Part shown: positions 1-6,073 of the stretch, piece after piece
How the letters are laid out: each line of letters begins with the position of its first letter
Numbering within the stretch: position 1 is the stretch's first letter
DNA from: a bacterium
Lineage (GTDB): Bacteria; Elusimicrobiota; Elusimicrobia; UBA1565; UBA9628
DNA: 6,073 nucleotides
NCBI GenBank assembly: GCA_021796015.1
Contig: JAJYOT010000068.1
Coordinates: 1 to 6,073, forward strand
Direction of reading: 5' to 3'
Made by a program: the position numbers and the translations under genes
The notes under the pieces: model-generated
The model's input: only the letters and a program-made list of their open reading frames with translations
Database searches by the model: none
What the model was told of the DNA's origin: nothing

Positions 1-3000
1 ATGATTGGCCTCAAGAACCTTGCGGGTGTCATCCTGAATCTGGGAAATCGCATGCGAGGTTTGGTGTAGCGCGCTGTCGTAAGGGCTATTGAGTTGTCCC
101 ATCCATGACAAAAGTTCGGATTTCGTGCTATTCAAACTGCTCATCGTGTTTTGAAGCGCCGTCATCATCGAATTCATCGCCGTCAAATCGCCCTGATCAA
201 CGGTGACCCCCGAGCCGTAAACCTGATTAGCCATGGCCTGATAATAGGTGGAGAGAAGATTCACCGTCCCTAAAGACCCGGGATCGTATTGACTAATCTT
301 GATATTGTAAAAATTGATTCCCTCTTGGAGAACGGACTGCAAAGAATTGAGCATCGCGATTTGATTGGCGTAAACCGTCGCGGTTGGGGGGCTATTGCCA
401 CCTGAGTTGATGTAAGCCTCGTCCTGCTTTAATTGCGCTTGAGCGCTGTTTAAAGCGGCGGTTGCATCGTTTAAGAATTTTTCAGCTTGGGGAATCTCGG
501 TCGCGAGTTCCTGCTGGGAGCTCTGAACCGTCGAAAAGGAATAGAGAAAGCGCGCGATTGAGAAAGAAATCGAAGGAGAATTGGCGCTGCTTCCGGATGA
601 CGGCGCCAAGATTTTGGCCGCGGCCAAGGCCAAAAGGGCCAACTGTTGAGCGTTAGAAACGGTCGGAGACGGCTGATGACCGGTTTGAACGGCGAGACCG
701 CCCCCGCCGCCCACATTAATTGAAGACGCTGAGCCCGCTTGGGCCGCGATATTTTTCAGCTCGGAAGCCAAACCGGTTAAATTCCCGTTGTTAGTCACGG
801 AGAGAGAATAAATCTGATTATAGCCCGCTTGACTCGCCGCGACATTGGTCGGCAATTGATAGGACGAAAGATTGTATTTCCCGCCCGACAAGGTTTGGAT
901 TTTCGTTAGGATTTGGTTAAGTTGCGCATCTTGATCGTTGATTTCCTTGACGCGCTGATCCATTTCAGTCGTGTAAAGGGTAATTTTTTTCGGGAGGCTG
1001 TATGGCCCGCCGCCGGGATAATTACTGTCCTTCAAATAATCTACGGTCTCATTCCCATTAAAATTCGGGTCTTTTCTCTCGTTGACCTGAGTCAGATTCG
1101 TTGAAACCGTCTGTTGAAGATTGGTGAAATTGGTCTGCCAAGATTGCAAACTCGACAAACTGCTGGCGGTGTTTCCGGAACTGCCGCCTAAAGAGATCAG
1201 CCCCCAAGGAATGGTTTTATCGTTGAGTTGTTGAGTTTGGGTAATCAGAGAATTTTCCGCGCTAAAAAGCTCTTGATAAGCTCCATTGGAAGACACCTGC
1301 TGAATGGAAGACTCTTGATAGGGAATGAGCGTGTTTTCCAAGGCGTTTTGAATGTTGTTCAGAGGCGAGATAATGTCGTTTTGAAGCAAATTTTCCTTGC
1401 GGTTAATAAGCGCCTGCACCGCGTTGGTCGGGGGATTGGCATTGGCATTGGGATATTGGGCCACGAAAGCCTGATCGGCCCCAACATCGTTGATGATATT
1501 TTGCACCATGTTGACGGCCTGCTTCATGGCGGTCTGGGCTTGGGGAACGGTACCTCGAAGCGCGCTTTGAATGGTCGTCACGGTCGTCTGGGCCTCGCTT
1601 CCTTGAATGACCAGCCAAGCCGCCTGCGGCAAGAGAGAAGCGATTTTCACCAAATCCAGGGAAGCCTGAAAAGCCTGGGGTGTTCCGTTATTGGGTATCT
1701 GTGCGTTTTGAAGAGCCGTTCCATAATTTTGAACCGCGGTTTGGAGTTGGGTCAGAGTCAAACCCGAAAGCCGGGGCAAGCTCGGCCCTCCAGCCTGACT
1801 GATTTGGTTGGCCATTTGATCCATTTGAGAGGTAATGGAGTTAATGGATGATTGCGCTTGGCTCAAGGTTTGGCTCGCTTGGGCTTCCCAAACCGGCAAA
1901 GACTGAGGATAAGAACGCCCAAATTCATCGGTCACCATCGTCTGATTATTGGGGTCTAACATCGCCGCGACCGAGTTAAGGTCCTTTTGAAAAGTATTGA
2001 GTTGCCCTTCCCAGTAAGACTTTCGCGCGCTTAAAATTTCGCTAAAGCTCATCGAGTTGGAAATGCCCGGGCCGCCCGGAACGTCTTTAATAATGACTGG
2101 CCAGGCTTGAGTAGGCGCCGTCTTAATTTCGCTGAGGCCATTCTGCGCTGATTGAAGATTGGTCTGGACCTCGGTCAAGATATTTTTAAATTCCTTGAGC
2201 GAAAATGCCGAGGGATTGTTGGGATTTCCGTTCGTACGCCATTGAGACACCTGTCCCAGTTCCTGCAAACGCAGTTGAAACTTCGCCTCCAAAGCCTGCG
2301 CCTCGGAATCAAAACTTCCGCTCGTAACTCCTTCATGAGAGGCAATGGTCGCCATAACCGAGGGAAGCGCGCCTTTGACGGAAGTGAAAACTTGGACCGC
2401 GGAAGAAGCTTCGCTAAAATCGGAAGAGAGTTGATTTTGTTGGGTTTGATCGGCCTGGGTCTGCTGAGTCGCTTCCTGCTGCCATTGCGGAAGATTAGAC
2501 TGCGCCTGTTGAGCTGCCGCTTGGTTTTGTTGCGACAAGGTCTGGGACTGGTCTATTTTCTGGATGTTGGTATTCAAAAGACCTTCCATCCCGCTGATCG
2601 CGTTTTCCGCCGCGTTAATTTCGCGAAGGCCTAGAGCGAAATCCATGACCGCCGAAACCTGGGAAAGGCCTTGAATAAAATTCATCATATCCTGCCCGTT
2701 CCGGCGATTATTCAGAGCGCTCTCCCGCGCCTTGGAAACGACTTCAAGCACTTTTCCAGTCGCGTCCCGCATTTTCATCTGGGCCGCGGCATTGGTTCTG
2801 AGAGTTCTAATCTCCTTCACCAAGTTTTCGATTTTATGATCCACCTTCAAATCTTCGGGGGAAAGGGGACGTTCGCTCGGGACGTTTCTCCCCACCTTGC
2901 GGTCCAGATTGCTCAATACGGACTTGATCATTCCAGGACGAATTTCCTGATCCTCGGCATAACCGATGCGATTCTCCGGGCCTCTGCGTTTTTTTGCATC

Positions 3001-5382
3001 CATCGAAGACAGATCTTTCAGTTTTTGCTTCAATTCGTGAAGATGTTGGTCTGAATTTGAGGCAGGACGGCTTAAATCATGGTTTTCTGAAAGCTTTGAA
3101 CGGACATAACGCTCGTTTTGAGCCTGTCGTAATTTGGCCAACCGCGCTCGATAGGCCTTGATTTCACCCGGGGTCAAAGGCCGGTTTTGAGTTTTGAGCG
3201 CCGCCTCGTCTTTATGAACCGAGGCCAAATCTTTTTGAAGCTTCAGTTCTTGCGCGCGCGCGGCTTTCATCTCGTCCTTAAAATTTCCCGCCGATTTCTC
3301 AAGTTCTTTAAGGCGAGCGTCTATTTCCTTGGGAGTTTTTTTGTAAAGCTCGGAGTCAAACGGAATCGGCTTACTGGGAGCGGAAGCCGCCGCTACCACG
3401 CCCGCGGCCGCAGCGCCGGCGGTACGGGAGTTGAGAGTGTGCATGACCGCGTCCGACAAGTTAAATCCCAAGGCCGATTCAACTTTGTAGAGAAGGACAT
3501 TCCCCCAGGTAATCGCTCCACCAAAAGGAATCACGCTTTGACCTTTAGGGGCTTCAAACGCCGAGAAAAGGCCGTGAAAGCCGTGAAAGTCGTGCCCCGT
3601 AACCGCATGCCAAGAAGGAGTCAGGCTTGTATCAATCTGGGCTCCGTAGGAAAGAATTCCTTGAATCTCGGAACCGACGGTCAAAAGCCCCAGGAAAAAC
3701 TTAAGGTCCTGCCAAATGAAGAATTTCCAAAACTCGCGCGCGAAAACGGCCGAGGCCATGGCCTGGGTCCAACTTACGGAATCTTCGGGATGTTCGGCTT
3801 CAAGACGCCGGCGATGCCAATCCACCGACTGGGGCAAGGTAAAAATGGTCGAGAGAATAAAAGTATTTAATATGGGGCCAAGAACCAAATCCTTCATCAA
3901 GGCCTGTGTGGCAGCGGCTACAATGGGCGCAAAAACTCCACCCAAGAAAGGAATCCCTGAAATGAAAACAGGAAGGCCGTTGGCGGCCGTAACCAACAGC
4001 GGCCCCATCACGGGAATAGATAAAAGACTTAAGTGGAGAATCGCGACCCCCGGAGCCAAGGCGCCCAAGATTCCCATCGCCACCGCCGAAGCCACCGCCA
4101 TAATGAGTCGGCGTCTTAAAAAGGCCAAAAGCGGCAAGGGGGCGACATGGCCAAAAATTCTCACCAAACGACCCGGCCCGGTTGAGAGAAAACGAGAGGC
4201 CCAGGTTTCGCCGTTTCCTGAAATCGCGCTTTCACGCAAAACGCGGCGGAAAAATTGCTCGGCGTTTTGGGTCTCGACGACCAGCCCGCCATCGACGTCG
4301 GCCAGACTCAAAAAATCCTCGGTGGAATGGGCGAAGGTATAGCTGATATTCTGCCGGAAATAACCCAAAACGAAAACGTCAAACAAATGATACGGGAACC
4401 GGACAAAAAAACCCAAGAGATGCTTCTGAATCTCGAAGGTTCTTTTCAGCCGGCCCTTCCATCCCGGCTCGTAATGCAGATTCGCCAATTTTTGAAATCC
4501 AACATGGTATTTTTGCGCGTCGAAATGCTGAAAGCGCTGGGCGTTGAGCTTTTGAAGCCCCAGATAAACCGCGTCCCACTCGGCATGAGGAGAGTCTTCT
4601 TTAAGCCCGACCTTGGACGCGAGTTCTATCACGCGCGCGCGCGTAATATGGAATTGACGGGAAATTTGATCGATGATTTGGGGAGTCTCGGCGTTTAAGG
4701 GCAGACGGGAAAGCTCGGAGTCGTGCTTAAGGCCGACGACCTTGCGGTATCCGAGCATGTTCTCATAAAAAATCGAAACTCCCGGAGGGCCTCTGGGCGC
4801 TTCCGGCGGCAAGGCCGCTTGGGAATCGCCCGGAGGCGGCCCCATCGGCGGACCGCCGTTCCCAATTTTTCCCGCGCCGTCAAAAAGCGCCCGGCTCGCC
4901 AAGGCCGCGGACTCGGGTGAAGAATTCGCAATTCTGTTTTTTTCTTCGTCATTCCGGCGCAAGCCGGAATCCAGACCATCGCTAACGGACTGGACCCCGG
5001 CTTTCGCCGGGGTGACGACGGGAGAATTGGGGACTGTCCCTAACTCCCCAGGCCTGGTCTCCACCCCAATGACCTTTTGCGCTTGACTCGCGGATTTCTC
5101 TGGAGAAGGTTGGGAAGACGTTTCAATTTTTTTCGCTTCGCTCGGCAATGGTTCCGAAGGCAAAGCCGCGTTCGGAGGAGGAATTTCGGCTCCCGATAAA
5201 GAAGCCGCCGAAGGATCCAGCGACTGATCGGGAAGAGAAAGTGGGTTTTGGAGCGGGTCTGGGGCATCTTCTTTGGGAGCGTCCGCGGCTAAAACGGCGT
5301 AAAAACGGGACCCCGGAGACAATAAGATCAAGCTGAGGGCCAGAAATATGGAGAGAAATTGCTTGATCTTTTTTTGAATCAT
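1..5382 (-). CDS. Giant exported/envelope protein of unknown function (3' end outside window)
   Basis: The frame starts at ATG 5382-5380, stays open for 1794 codons and runs off the left edge, so the C-terminus is missing. I chose this start because it is followed at once by a signal sequence (KKIK, then a hydrophobic core, then AVLAAD). An in-frame TAA lies just upstream (5395-5397), and the next Met is near residue 182. Layout in approximate residues: signal 1-33; Pro/Ser/Ala linker 35-205; soluble segment 205-405; several hydrophobic helices 408-516; mixed segment with a His cluster 520-655; Ala-rich hinge 655-670; charged coiled coil 675-890; Gln-rich 935-984; Gln/Asn/Ser/Thr-rich helical region with ~300-residue internal repeats from about 1094 to the edge. 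I see no cysteine. No enzymatic motif or known family is recognised. The signal peptide and coiled coils suggest a structural role at the cell envelope or surface. A tape-measure-like protein was considered, but the signal peptide argues against it. The frame is near certain; the role is inferred. Confidence 0.93.
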   Translation of the reverse strand, partial: MIQKKIKQFLSIFLALSLILLSPGSRFYAVLAADAPKEDAPDPLQNPLSLPDQSLDPSAASLSGAEIPPPNAALPSEPLPSEAKKIETSSQPSPEKSASQAQKVIGVETRPGELGTVPNSPVVTPAKAGVQSVSDGLDSGLRRNDEEKNRIANSSPESAALASRALFDGAGKIGNGGPPMGPPPGDSQAALPPEAPRGPPGVSIFYENMLGYRKVVGLKHDSELSRLPLNAETPQIIDQISRQFHITRARVIELASKVGLKEDSPHAEWDAVYLGLQKLNAQRFQHFDAQKYHVGFQKLANLHYEPGWKGRLKRTFEIQKHLLGFFVRFPYHLFDVFVLGYFRQNISYTFAHSTEDFLSLADVDGGLVVETQNAEQFFRRVLRESAISGNGETWASRFLSTGPGRLVRIFGHVAPLPLLAFLRRRLIMAVASAVAMGILGALAPGVAILHLSLLSIPVMGPLLVTAANGLPVFISGIPFLGGVFAPIVAAATQALMKDLVLGPILNTFILSTIFTLPQSVDWHRRRLEAEHPEDSVSWTQAMASAVFAREFWKFFIWQDLKFFLGLLTVGSEIQGILSYGAQIDTSLTPSWHAVTGHDFHGFHGLFSAFEAPKGQSVIPFGGAITWGNVLLYKVESALGFNLSDAVMHTLNSRTAGAAAAGVVAAASAPSKPIPFDSELYKKTPKEIDARLKELEKSAGNFKDEMKAARAQELKLQKDLASVHKDEAALKTQNRPLTPGEIKAYRARLAKLRQAQNERYVRSKLSENHDLSRPASNSDQHLHELKQKLKDLSSMDAKKRRGPENRIGYAEDQEIRPGMIKSVLSNLDRKVGRNVPSERPLSPEDLKVDHKIENLVKEIRTLRTNAAAQMKMRDATGKVLEVVSKARESALNNRRNGQDMMNFIQGLSQVSAVMDFALGLREINAAENAISGMEGLLNTNIQKIDQSQTLSQQNQAAAQQAQSNLPQWQQEATQQTQADQTQQNQLSSDFSEASSAVQVFTSVKGALPSVMATIASHEGVTSGSFDSEAQALEAKFQLRLQELGQVSQWRTNGNPNNPSAFSLKEFKNILTEVQTNLQSAQNGLSEIKTAPTQAWPVIIKDVPGGPGISNSMSFSEILSARKSYWEGQLNTFQKDLNSVAAMLDPNNQTMVTDEFGRSYPQSLPVWEAQASQTLSQAQSSINSITSQMDQMANQISQAGGPSLPRLSGLTLTQLQTAVQNYGTALQNAQIPNNGTPQAFQASLDLVKIASLLPQAAWLVIQGSEAQTTVTTIQSALRGTVPQAQTAMKQAVNMVQNIINDVGADQAFVAQYPNANANPPTNAVQALINRKENLLQNDIISPLNNIQNALENTLIPYQESSIQQVSSNGAYQELFSAENSLITQTQQLNDKTIPWGLISLGGSSGNTASSLSSLQSWQTNFTNLQQTVSTNLTQVNERKDPNFNGNETVDYLKDSNYPGGGPYSLPKKITLYTTEMDQRVKEINDQDAQLNQILTKIQTLSGGKYNLSSYQLPTNVAASQAGYNQIYSLSVTNNGNLTGLASELKNIAAQAGSASSINVGGGGGLAVQTGHQPSPTVSNAQQLALLALAAAKILAPSSGSSANSPSISFSIARFLYSFSTVQSSQQELATEIPQAEKFLNDATAALNSAQAQLKQDEAYINSGGNSPPTATVYANQIAMLNSLQSVLQEGINFYNIKISQYDPGSLGTVNLLSTYYQAMANQVYGSGVTVDQGDLTAMNSMMTALQNTMSSLNSTKSELLSWMGQLNSPYDSALHQTSHAISQIQDDTRKVLEANH
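187..1206 (-). repeat. Diverged protein repeat, copy B (with ~50-residue insertion)
   Basis: Residues about 1393-1732 repeat the landmarks of the preceding unit. They are W1393 then L-I; DPN at 1438-1440; YP...SLP at 1455-1464; Y1521 then NNG at 1531-1533; IPQAE at 1630-1634; and GGNSPP near 1661-1666. The spacing is 295-301 up to NNG and then grows to about 351. The difference is explained by a Gly-rich insertion around 1555-1610 that contains GGGGG at 1558-1562. A further copy may start near residue 1733, but too little is visible. Confidence 0.5.
1207..2103 (-). repeat. Diverged protein repeat, copy A (~300 residues)
   Basis: Residues about 1094-1392 align in order with residues 1393 onward at a spacing of about 300. 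Shared landmarks in copy A are W1094 then V-I; DPNN at 1143-1146; YPQSLP at 1158-1163; Y1220 then NNG at 1231-1233; VPQAQ at 1279-1283; and NANPP followed by a Gln/Leu-rich helix near 1314-1334. Identity between copies is low, so this rests on the ordered landmarks and similar composition. The unit is predicted mostly helical and is rich in Gln, Asn, Ser and Thr. Boundaries are approximate. Confidence 0.5.
2431..2580 (-). other. Gln-rich segment of the giant protein
   Basis: Of residues 935-984, 19 of 50 are Gln, with the remainder mostly Ala, Ser, Thr, Asn and Asp, for example SQQNQAAAQQAQ (950-961). It joins the coiled-coil region to the Gln/Asn/Ser/Thr-rich repeats. It could be an extension of a polar coiled coil or a flexible linker. 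The DNA is not a simple trinucleotide repeat (CAA and CAG are mixed), so recent slippage is not evident. Confidence 0.6.
2713..3345 (-). other. Charged coiled-coil region of the giant protein
   Basis: Residues about 680-890 are rich in Lys, Glu, Arg, Ala and Leu with heptad-like spacing, as in EIDARLKELEKS (685-696), KAYRARLAKLRQ (742-753) and DHKIENLVKEIRTL (848-861). Almost no aromatic residues are present. An Ala-rich hinge (AGAAAAGVVAAASAP, 655-669) precedes it. A motif RPL(T/S)P followed by an acidic-start helix occurs twice, at 734 and 838. This suggests two related rod modules about 104 residues apart. Confidence 0.6.
3835..4161 (-). other. Hydrophobic multi-helix segment of the giant protein
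   Basis: Residues about 408-516 are strongly hydrophobic with few charges after an RRR at 423-425. Candidate membrane spans are about 426-454 (IMAVASAVAMGILGALAPGV onward), 455-474, 476-494 and 499-515. Short Pro/Gly turns separate them, and polar WHRRR-type sequence follows. This could be three to four membrane helices, which would anchor the protein after its export signal. It could instead be a buried hydrophobic domain or an insertion segment. I recognise no family. Confidence 0.6.
4631..4644. repeat. Alternating CG tract, ACGCGCGCGCGCGT
   Basis: This is a 14-bp perfectly self-complementary alternating purine-pyrimidine tract containing six CG dinucleotides, inside the giant gene, where it encodes T-R-A-R-V (residues 247-251). 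A shorter GC alternation lies at 3252-3262. Such tracts favour Z-DNA and replication slippage, but here the reading frame is intact and no function is implied. Confidence 0.7.
4946..5018. repeat. Inverted pair of REP-like hairpins inside the coding frame
   Basis: Two 29-bp arms, 4946-4974 and 4990-5018, are inverted copies of each other with 5 mismatches, around a 15-bp spacer. Each arm is itself a hairpin. Arm 1 has ATTCCGGC / GCCGGAAT around GCAA. Arm 2 has ACCCCGGC / GCCGGGGT around TTTC, which reads GAAA in repeat orientation. Four of the five mismatches form two compensatory pairs (T-A in arm 1, C-G in arm 2); the fifth is in the loop. The sequence type (CATTCCGGCG...CGCCGGAATG-like) is a widespread bacterial interspersed repeat. 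It often leaves peptides such as PAKAG and SGLRRND in predicted proteins, and both are seen here at residues about 122-146 of the giant protein. The element sits in the Pro/Ser-rich linker and keeps the reading frame open. Confidence 0.85.
5027..5043. repeat. Imperfect GGGGAC/GTCCC palindrome beside the REP pair
   Basis: TTGGGGAC (5027-5034) and GTCCCTAA (5036-5043) are inverted copies around a single T, with one mismatched pair (5029/5041). The palindrome lies 8 bp beyond the REP-like pair and encodes part of GTVPNSP in the giant protein. GGGGAC-N-GTCCCC palindromes recur as dispersed repeats in several bacterial groups, some near REP-associated (IS200-like) transposases. Assigning this copy to such a family rests on memory and one imperfect example, so it is tentative. 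Confidence 0.45.
5284..5382 (-). other. Signal-peptide coding segment of the giant protein
   Basis: Residues 1-33 have a basic n-region (MIQKKIKQ), a hydrophobic core (FLSIFLALSLILL) and a helix-breaking Pro-Gly at 23-24. The polar end is FYAVLAAD. A signal peptidase I cut after A32 (V-L-A) or A33 fits the small residues at -3 and -1. No lipobox is possible because there is no Cys. The mature chain would begin with acidic, Pro-rich sequence (ADAPKEDAPDP). The alternative is an uncleaved signal anchor. Confidence 0.75.
5379..5382 (-). promoter_or_regulatory. ATGA stop/start overlap (translational coupling)
   Basis: The TGA stop of the membrane-protein gene (5381-5379) overlaps the ATG start of the giant gene (5382-5380) in the tetranucleotide ATGA. 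The 25 bases upstream of this ATG (GCCGATTTAATCTCGCTTAC and flanks) contain no purine-rich Shine-Dalgarno-like run. Initiation on the giant gene therefore most likely depends on ribosomes terminating on the upstream gene. No separate promoter is visible between the two genes. Confidence 0.8.
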
Positions 5383-6073
5383 GCGTAAGCGAGATTAAAT
5401 CGGCGCGGCAAGTTGAAAGCTAGTGGGCCCTCCTTTTTACCGCCGGCATCCGGACGTTTGAGCGCGCGATACGTGATGAAAGAAAACAAAAATTGTAAAA
5501 CGTTCGACGCCGCGACGAGAACCAAATCGATGTGTTTGGCCGGATTCTGCCAAGCCTGGGTTCCCCCCCAGACCACAAAACACGCGGCAATGAGGCAGAA
5601 AATTAAAACAAACCCCGGGGCAAAACTATTTGGTTTTTCCCCCCGCTTGATGGTCATCAAATCCGGAACAAACAAGGACAAATAAAAGCCTTGAACCAGA
5701 ATCTGAATTCCCGCGCTAATCAAAGGCAACGGAACTGGGAAAACCGATGAAATCAAAGAGGGCATGAAAGCGGCGAGACCAAAATACATTCCAAAGCCCG
5801 CGGCAATAAGAAGAGGCGCCAAGGCTAAGGTCATTTGAAGAGAACGGTCCGTTCGAAGTTCGTTCAACCATTTCCTCAGCCAAGACCCGTCATGGGAAGG
5901 AACGCTTGGCTGGGTTTTTTCCTTTGGGAGAAATTTCGCCAGCAAAATTCCCGCGGCCAAAACGGCGGAAACCGACAGGCACTCCGAACCCCACAAAAAT
6001 TTATCGGCCGCGGTCTGAGCCGGAGCGACGATGAGCCCGACCATGAGATTGGCCGCGATCACCCCGTAAGTCC
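5379..6073 (-). CDS. Multi-pass membrane protein of unknown family (5' end outside window)
   Basis: The frame is open to the right edge and ends with TGA at 5381-5379. At least 227 residues are visible counting from an internal GTG at 6062. The codons upstream of that GTG (T-Y-G) are still open and the sequence there is already membrane-like, so the true start is probably outside the window. Counting from that GTG, hydrophobic segments lie at about 1-15, 29-46, 77-100, 109-132, 147-170 and 179-201. A charged, soluble loop (about 47-75, with WLRKWLNELRTDR) separates the second and third. The C-terminal tail is basic (LKRPDAGGKK, then LPRRFN), which would suit the cytoplasmic side. The pattern suits an integral inner-membrane protein such as a transporter fragment, but I recognise no family signature. 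It contains three Cys, unlike its neighbour. The 4-base ATGA overlap with the giant gene indicates co-transcription and coupled translation, and perhaps a shared envelope function. Confidence 0.85.
   Translation of the reverse strand, partial: TYGVIAANLMVGLIVAPAQTAADKFLWGSECLSVSAVLAAGILLAKFLPKEKTQPSVPSHDGSWLRKWLNELRTDRSLQMTLALAPLLIAAGFGMYFGLAAFMPSLISSVFPVPLPLISAGIQILVQGFYLSLFVPDLMTIKRGEKPNSFAPGFVLIFCLIAACFVVWGGTQAWQNPAKHIDLVLVAASNVLQFLFSFITYRALKRPDAGGKKEGPLAFNLPRRFNLAYA

Follow-up and report, generated by a model that had tools for sequence, protein, structure and literature searches.

A giant, cysteine-avoiding protein of Elusimicrobiota with TolC-like repeats, a possible single-chain channel across the cell envelope

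We analysed a stretch of DNA of 6,073 nucleotides (the window; contig JAJYOT010000068.1, positions 1 to 6,073, of GenBank assembly GCA_021796015.1) from a bacterium of the phylum Elusimicrobiota. Most of it is one minus-strand frame, which starts with an ATG at position 5382, stays open to window position 1 and has its 3' end outside the window. P0011 (4727 aa, no cysteine) matches this part with 16 mismatches in 1794 residues (99.1% identity) and is taken as a near-identical sibling of the window protein because these 16 residues differ. Since the full length of P0011 is 4727 codons, the window shows about 38% (the N-terminal part) of one very long gene. The genes and domains in the window are as follows.

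1..5382, minus strand: first 1794 codons of the giant gene, whose length in P0011 is 4727 codons; the remainder lies beyond window position 1
5281..5382, minus strand: signal peptide, residues 1-34, recognised by eye and hydropathy
4798..5280, minus strand: variable Pro-rich linker, residues 35-195, from composition and the ratio of nonsynonymous to synonymous substitution rates (dN/dS)
3268..4797, minus strand: N-terminal membrane module, residues 196-705, present in the long form of the protein
3835..4107, minus strand: hydrophobic core of the membrane module, residues 426-516, hydrophobic helices
2461..3267, minus strand: charged helical/coil linker, residues 706-974, with mostly low model confidence
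2416..2574, minus strand: Gln-rich stretch, residues 937-989, from composition
1273..2058, minus strand: tandem helical domain copy 1, residues 1109-1370, from profile comparison and model
241..1173, minus strand: tandem helical domain copy 2, residues 1404-1714, from profile comparison
5379..6071, minus strand: C-terminal part of an upstream membrane-protein gene, overlapping the giant gene by 4 bases; its full-length relative is P0007 (in L001), a frame of 537 aa

That the giant frame is a real, conserved gene is well supported. It has no stop and no Cys codon over 1794 codons, whereas 53 Cys are expected from its base composition, and the chance of a stop-free run of 1793 codons at that composition is about 6e-35. 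Each of the remaining five reading frames has 39-102 stops and 9-55 Cys codons. Compared with the four nearest relatives, L001-L004, the frame shows a dN/dS of 0.082-0.105 (NG86; 1748-1772 codons compared), a ratio that is approximate because dS, at 0.9-1.8, is partly saturated. Judged from these alignments, the gene is under purifying selection with a dN/dS of about 0.09. An artefactual frame was ruled out by dN/dS and by the stop and Cys counts against the other frames. The frame is uninterrupted in four of the four nearest relatives; three of their assemblies hold closed frames of 4708, 4664 and 4662 residues (L001, L002 and L004 are closed single frames) and L003 runs off its contig. The original prediction, made from the window alone, had claimed a single frame running to the window edge, which is borne out, although it did not name the strand. 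For L013, L040, L045 and L052, the giant match and the longest frame free of stops are on opposite strands; gene callers could be misled by antisense frames of this length.

The original prediction had also read the window protein as an exported giant with a signal peptide, a Pro-rich linker, hydrophobic helices, a coiled coil, a Gln-rich segment and long repeats, belonging to no recognised family. The signal-like N-terminus is well supported and in keeping with export; it carries an SPG...Y...LA motif, which is also seen by eye in relatives and in P0007. The linker contains 16% Pro (measured on P0011), and the dN/dS of residues 1-200 is 0.28-0.37, against 0.04-0.13 in the other 200-residue pieces, one of which had no computable value. 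The hydrophobic helices and the Gln-rich segment were found as claimed, and the coiled coil corresponds to the charged helical/coil region. As for the repeats, no long DNA repeats were seen in the window, but there is one clear tandem duplication at profile level, residues 1109-1370 against 1404-1714 (hhalign, E about 3e-15). Searches of the window protein against Pfam, NCBIfam and PDB gave nothing convincing, with weak matches of E 0.07 and worse and none in NCBIfam. Of three regional alignments used for PDB profile searches, two gave no match and the third gave four weak ones (E 0.3-1.1). The similarity of the helical or membrane region in the window to TolC proteins was not significant. Thus, the absence of a recognised family stands for the window part but not for the whole protein, which is TolC-like in its middle to second half.

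The lack of Cys extends to the full protein. No Cys is present in L001 (4708 aa), L002 (4664 aa) and P0011, and a single one each in L003, L004 and P0001, at residue 11 within the signal peptide. The more distant P0002, P0003 and P0004 have 4, 1 and 5. Once the N-terminal 150 residues of each are set aside, 36 giant frames total 156,879 residues, of which 37 are Cys (0.024%). The C-terminal 400 residues of 20 TolC proteins from the same phylum contain 12 in 8000 (0.15%), therefore the lack is unusual even among envelope proteins; in nine genes from the neighbourhood of L001 the count is 29 in 3421 residues (0.85%). Cys avoidance in the giant family, of which the original prediction had seen the window part, is well supported, and the gene is a clear case of such avoidance in a very long envelope protein.

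TolC-family homotrimers form a 12-strand barrel. The TolC-type region of the giant protein lies at residues about 2340-3440, preceded by a beta-rich region at residues about 1850-2300. Its profile matches TolC proteins with hhalign E-values of 1.9e-7 to 5.1e-7 (probability 92-94%), and the reversed control gave 0.18. The fold described in the available text of PMC8277102, in which each repeat has two strands, a long helix and pseudocontinuous helices, is present in the predicted structure of L001. Units 1-3 were found by sequence similarity to TolC. Fold alignments to channel proteins are strong and fall in two registers, units 2+3 and units 3+4; three units by sequence and three by fold together give a minimum count of four. 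With E values up to 1 allowed, 5 of 34 relatives of the region match Pfam OEP, and of ten relatives scanned singly one passes the curated cut-off. The TolC relationship of the giant protein is well supported by profile comparison and predicted structure. Outer membrane factors (TolC, OprM, OprN, CusC; Pfam OEP, PF02321) share with the giant a unit built from two strands, a long helix and a helical return, a likeness seen in profile and predicted fold at residues about 2340-3040. These proteins have two units per chain, whereas more than two were found here: four, probably six, TolC half-repeats in one chain. In the giant the units are set in a protein of 4.7 thousand residues that has a membrane module and a C-terminal membrane helix of its own. 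Such a hydrophobic helix followed by basic residues was seen by eye at the C-terminus in 21 of 33 stop-terminated frames.

From this layout we propose, with about even confidence, an envelope-spanning single chain into which an outer-membrane channel is built. The signal peptide would export the protein. The N-terminal module (residues 196-705) and the C-terminal helix with its basic tail may sit in the inner membrane, and the long helical middle, which begins in the window, would cross the periplasm. The TolC-type region would form a presumably closed outer-membrane beta-barrel together with a periplasmic alpha-barrel. The chain would then be an outer-membrane channel, possibly self-contained, which is tethered to the inner membrane and may carry out transport.

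Several points weigh against this proposal. The TolC-type region lies outside the window and was read from P0011 and relatives. Units 4 and 5 have no sequence similarity to TolC (E 0.37 and 0.31), and that of unit 6 is marginal (E 0.0016). The L001 model shows a clear strand pair in only five of six units, and its confidence is moderate (predicted local distance difference test, pLDDT, 69.9; predicted template modelling score, pTM, 0.67). Pfam OEP has no match in L001 at E <= 1; it has none in L004 or in the window either. Twelve of the 33 stop-terminated frames, one of them (L070) apparently frameshifted, lack the C-terminal helix. Each of ten genomes searched has 10-24 OEP domain matches, so ordinary export needs no giant protein. 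The predicted structure of the tandem helical domain gave no clear fold match, with ClyA/XaxA-type alpha pore-forming proteins as the comparison class (criterion: a fold match above background). In addition, giant genes of Elusimicrobiota and sibling phyla have been interpreted as predatory surface weapons in the part of PMC12057145 available.

The alternative that survives best, though we consider it rather improbable, is a TolC-derived scaffold without a pore, in which the repeats form a rigid tether between inner and outer membrane. The divergence of the repeats, shown by units 4 and 5, the great chain length and the many ordinary OEP proteins per genome would fit such a scaffold, but the strand pairs predicted in five units and the strong fold match to channel proteins speak against it. 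A secreted or surface helical protein, acting through its tandem helical domains at the surface or on other cells and exporting itself through its TolC part, is unlikely. An extracellular fibrous protein, as the original prediction had it, would suit the absence of Cys and the Gln-rich and helical stretches; it is misfitted to the N-terminal membrane module, the C-terminal membrane helix and the TolC-type region, and is very improbable. Finally, misassembly or the merging of several genes into one frame, a possibility suggested by split relatives in some assemblies (G231, G208), can practically be dismissed given the closed frames in three assemblies and P0011 and the low dN/dS along the window.

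Matches to residues 2001-4000 of L001 at E <= 1e-3 were found in 52 of 340 genomes of the phylum, two of them weak (G147 and G183, about 1e-4). The window protein has matches in 49 of the 340, in G167 and G179 only through the stretch that encodes a palindromic repeat. The records with a named taxon (P0002-P0004, L004, P0013, P0014, P0016, P0021, P0023 and P0025) are all from Elusimicrobia or Elusimicrobiota. Several genomes have two copies: a long form, in most cases of 4.6-5.9 thousand residues, and a short form of about 3.7-3.9 thousand that is missing roughly the first 740-880 residues. In the shorter paralogues L065, L066, L067, L068, L071, L075 and L079, the N-terminal module is absent and, judged by eye, so is the C-terminal membrane helix. 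P0005 has a second internal duplication near its C-terminus (residues 3974-4090 against 4185-4303; hhalign E 5e-5).

Two palindromes are read in frame in the linker.

4948..5016, no strand assigned: palindrome like the repetitive extragenic palindromic (REP) type, residues 123-145, in frame and dispersed in G001-G003
5026..5046, no strand assigned: GGGACAGTCCCC palindrome, residues 113-119, read in frame

The stretch 4920-5070, folded as a DNA hairpin, has a z of -5.4. Matches to the REP-like palindrome, some partial and some counting one place on both strands, number 14 in G001, at least 53 in G002 (from 40 scored of 108 candidates), 30 in G003 and 0 in G004. The best copy in G001 is inside the giant gene of L001 itself, close to its start, where the orientation opposite to that of the window fits better (E 8.6e-17 against 1.7e-6). 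The GGGGACNGTCCCC palindrome, from which the second window copy is one base off, occurs at 82 places in G001 and at 3-15 in G002-G004, and a control pattern at none in all four. Rickettsia palindromic elements sit inside coding genes; they are alike in being palindromic repeats inserted in frame in a protein gene, whereas phylum and element differ. Downstream of the giant gene, L001:24137-25273 encodes a product of 378 aa with a signal-like N-terminus and a C-terminal hydrophobic helix, which also contains the LGTVPN peptide encoded by the second palindrome.

P0007 has no Pfam match at E <= 0.01, and the upstream fragment in the window has two NCBIfam matches far under cut-offs (best E 0.007). 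Of 43 giants searched with a profile of four copies of the upstream protein, three match it in their N-terminal part: L086 (3.6e-18), L087 (1.7e-15) and L085 (6.1e-14). P0014 is not among them, though BLASTP pairs it with the upstream protein at E 5e-5. Because a homologue of the upstream protein is fused to the giant in three other genomes, we argue that the two proteins work together; these three giants look alike and possibly form one lineage.

Among distant relatives, another gene, of about 300 residues, takes the upstream position on the same strand (for example L090:1970-2893). Five of six such proteins scanned have a Y1_Tnp domain, all five over the curated cut-off, and their tails show DnaA-like or other helix-turn-helix similarity under curated cut-offs. 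The gap to the nearest giant frame is below 150 bases at 17 of 21 loci and 1.4-4.7 kb at the other four. One long-form locus fetched from beyond the window clade, in G220, has no Y1_Tnp neighbour. A phylum search for this neighbour gave 32 places at >= 300 bits; of nine fetched, five have a giant nearby and G197, G218, G217 and G213 (short contig) have none. In the window clade the neighbour is absent: G002-G004 gave no match, and G001 has two distant homologues. HxH is found in 0 of 21 giant-linked proteins of this kind, whereas all 12 proteins chosen for comparison among lower-scoring phylum matches have NHxH; the HUH motif has thus been lost in the 21. REP-associated tyrosine transposases share the Y1_Tnp domain with this neighbour, which differs in having no HuH motif. 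In the available text of PMC6006769, their classification has a subclass with a DnaA-like tail, and its final sample was chosen for HuH and Y motifs (722 of 924) and is thus silent on HUH-less members. We tentatively suggest an extended form of the channel proposal, in which all six TolC half-repeats and their own inner-membrane anchors would lie in one polypeptide, so that a channel would form without trimerising. Among the long-form lineages examined beyond the window clade, most would have this chain linked to a REP-transposase homologue that is domesticated, lacks HUH and carries a DNA-binding tail like that of DnaA; this homologue may regulate it.

TolC-type channels are homotrimers that cross the envelope together with separate partners, as stated in the available text of PMC8277102. 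The giant would resemble tripartite efflux pumps and type I secretion systems as a putative conduit from inner to outer membrane, but would differ in having outer- and inner-membrane parts in one chain. A Pfam scan of two full giants, L001 and L004, found no transporter or adaptor domain. In the accessible portion of the open-access literature, no description of this giant family or of a single-chain TolC was recognised. A survey of huge proteins (>5000 aa) includes some from Elusimicrobiota, of the same phylum and size class as the giant; it states that these could be assigned no cluster of orthologous groups (COG), and its main text does not use the word TolC (PMC11573180). If the proposed architecture is true, several TolC units and membrane anchors in one giant chain would be a natural test of channel assembly. 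Some of the Elusimicrobiota giants, to which the available text of that survey assigns no role (PMC11573180), would also gain a class of function.
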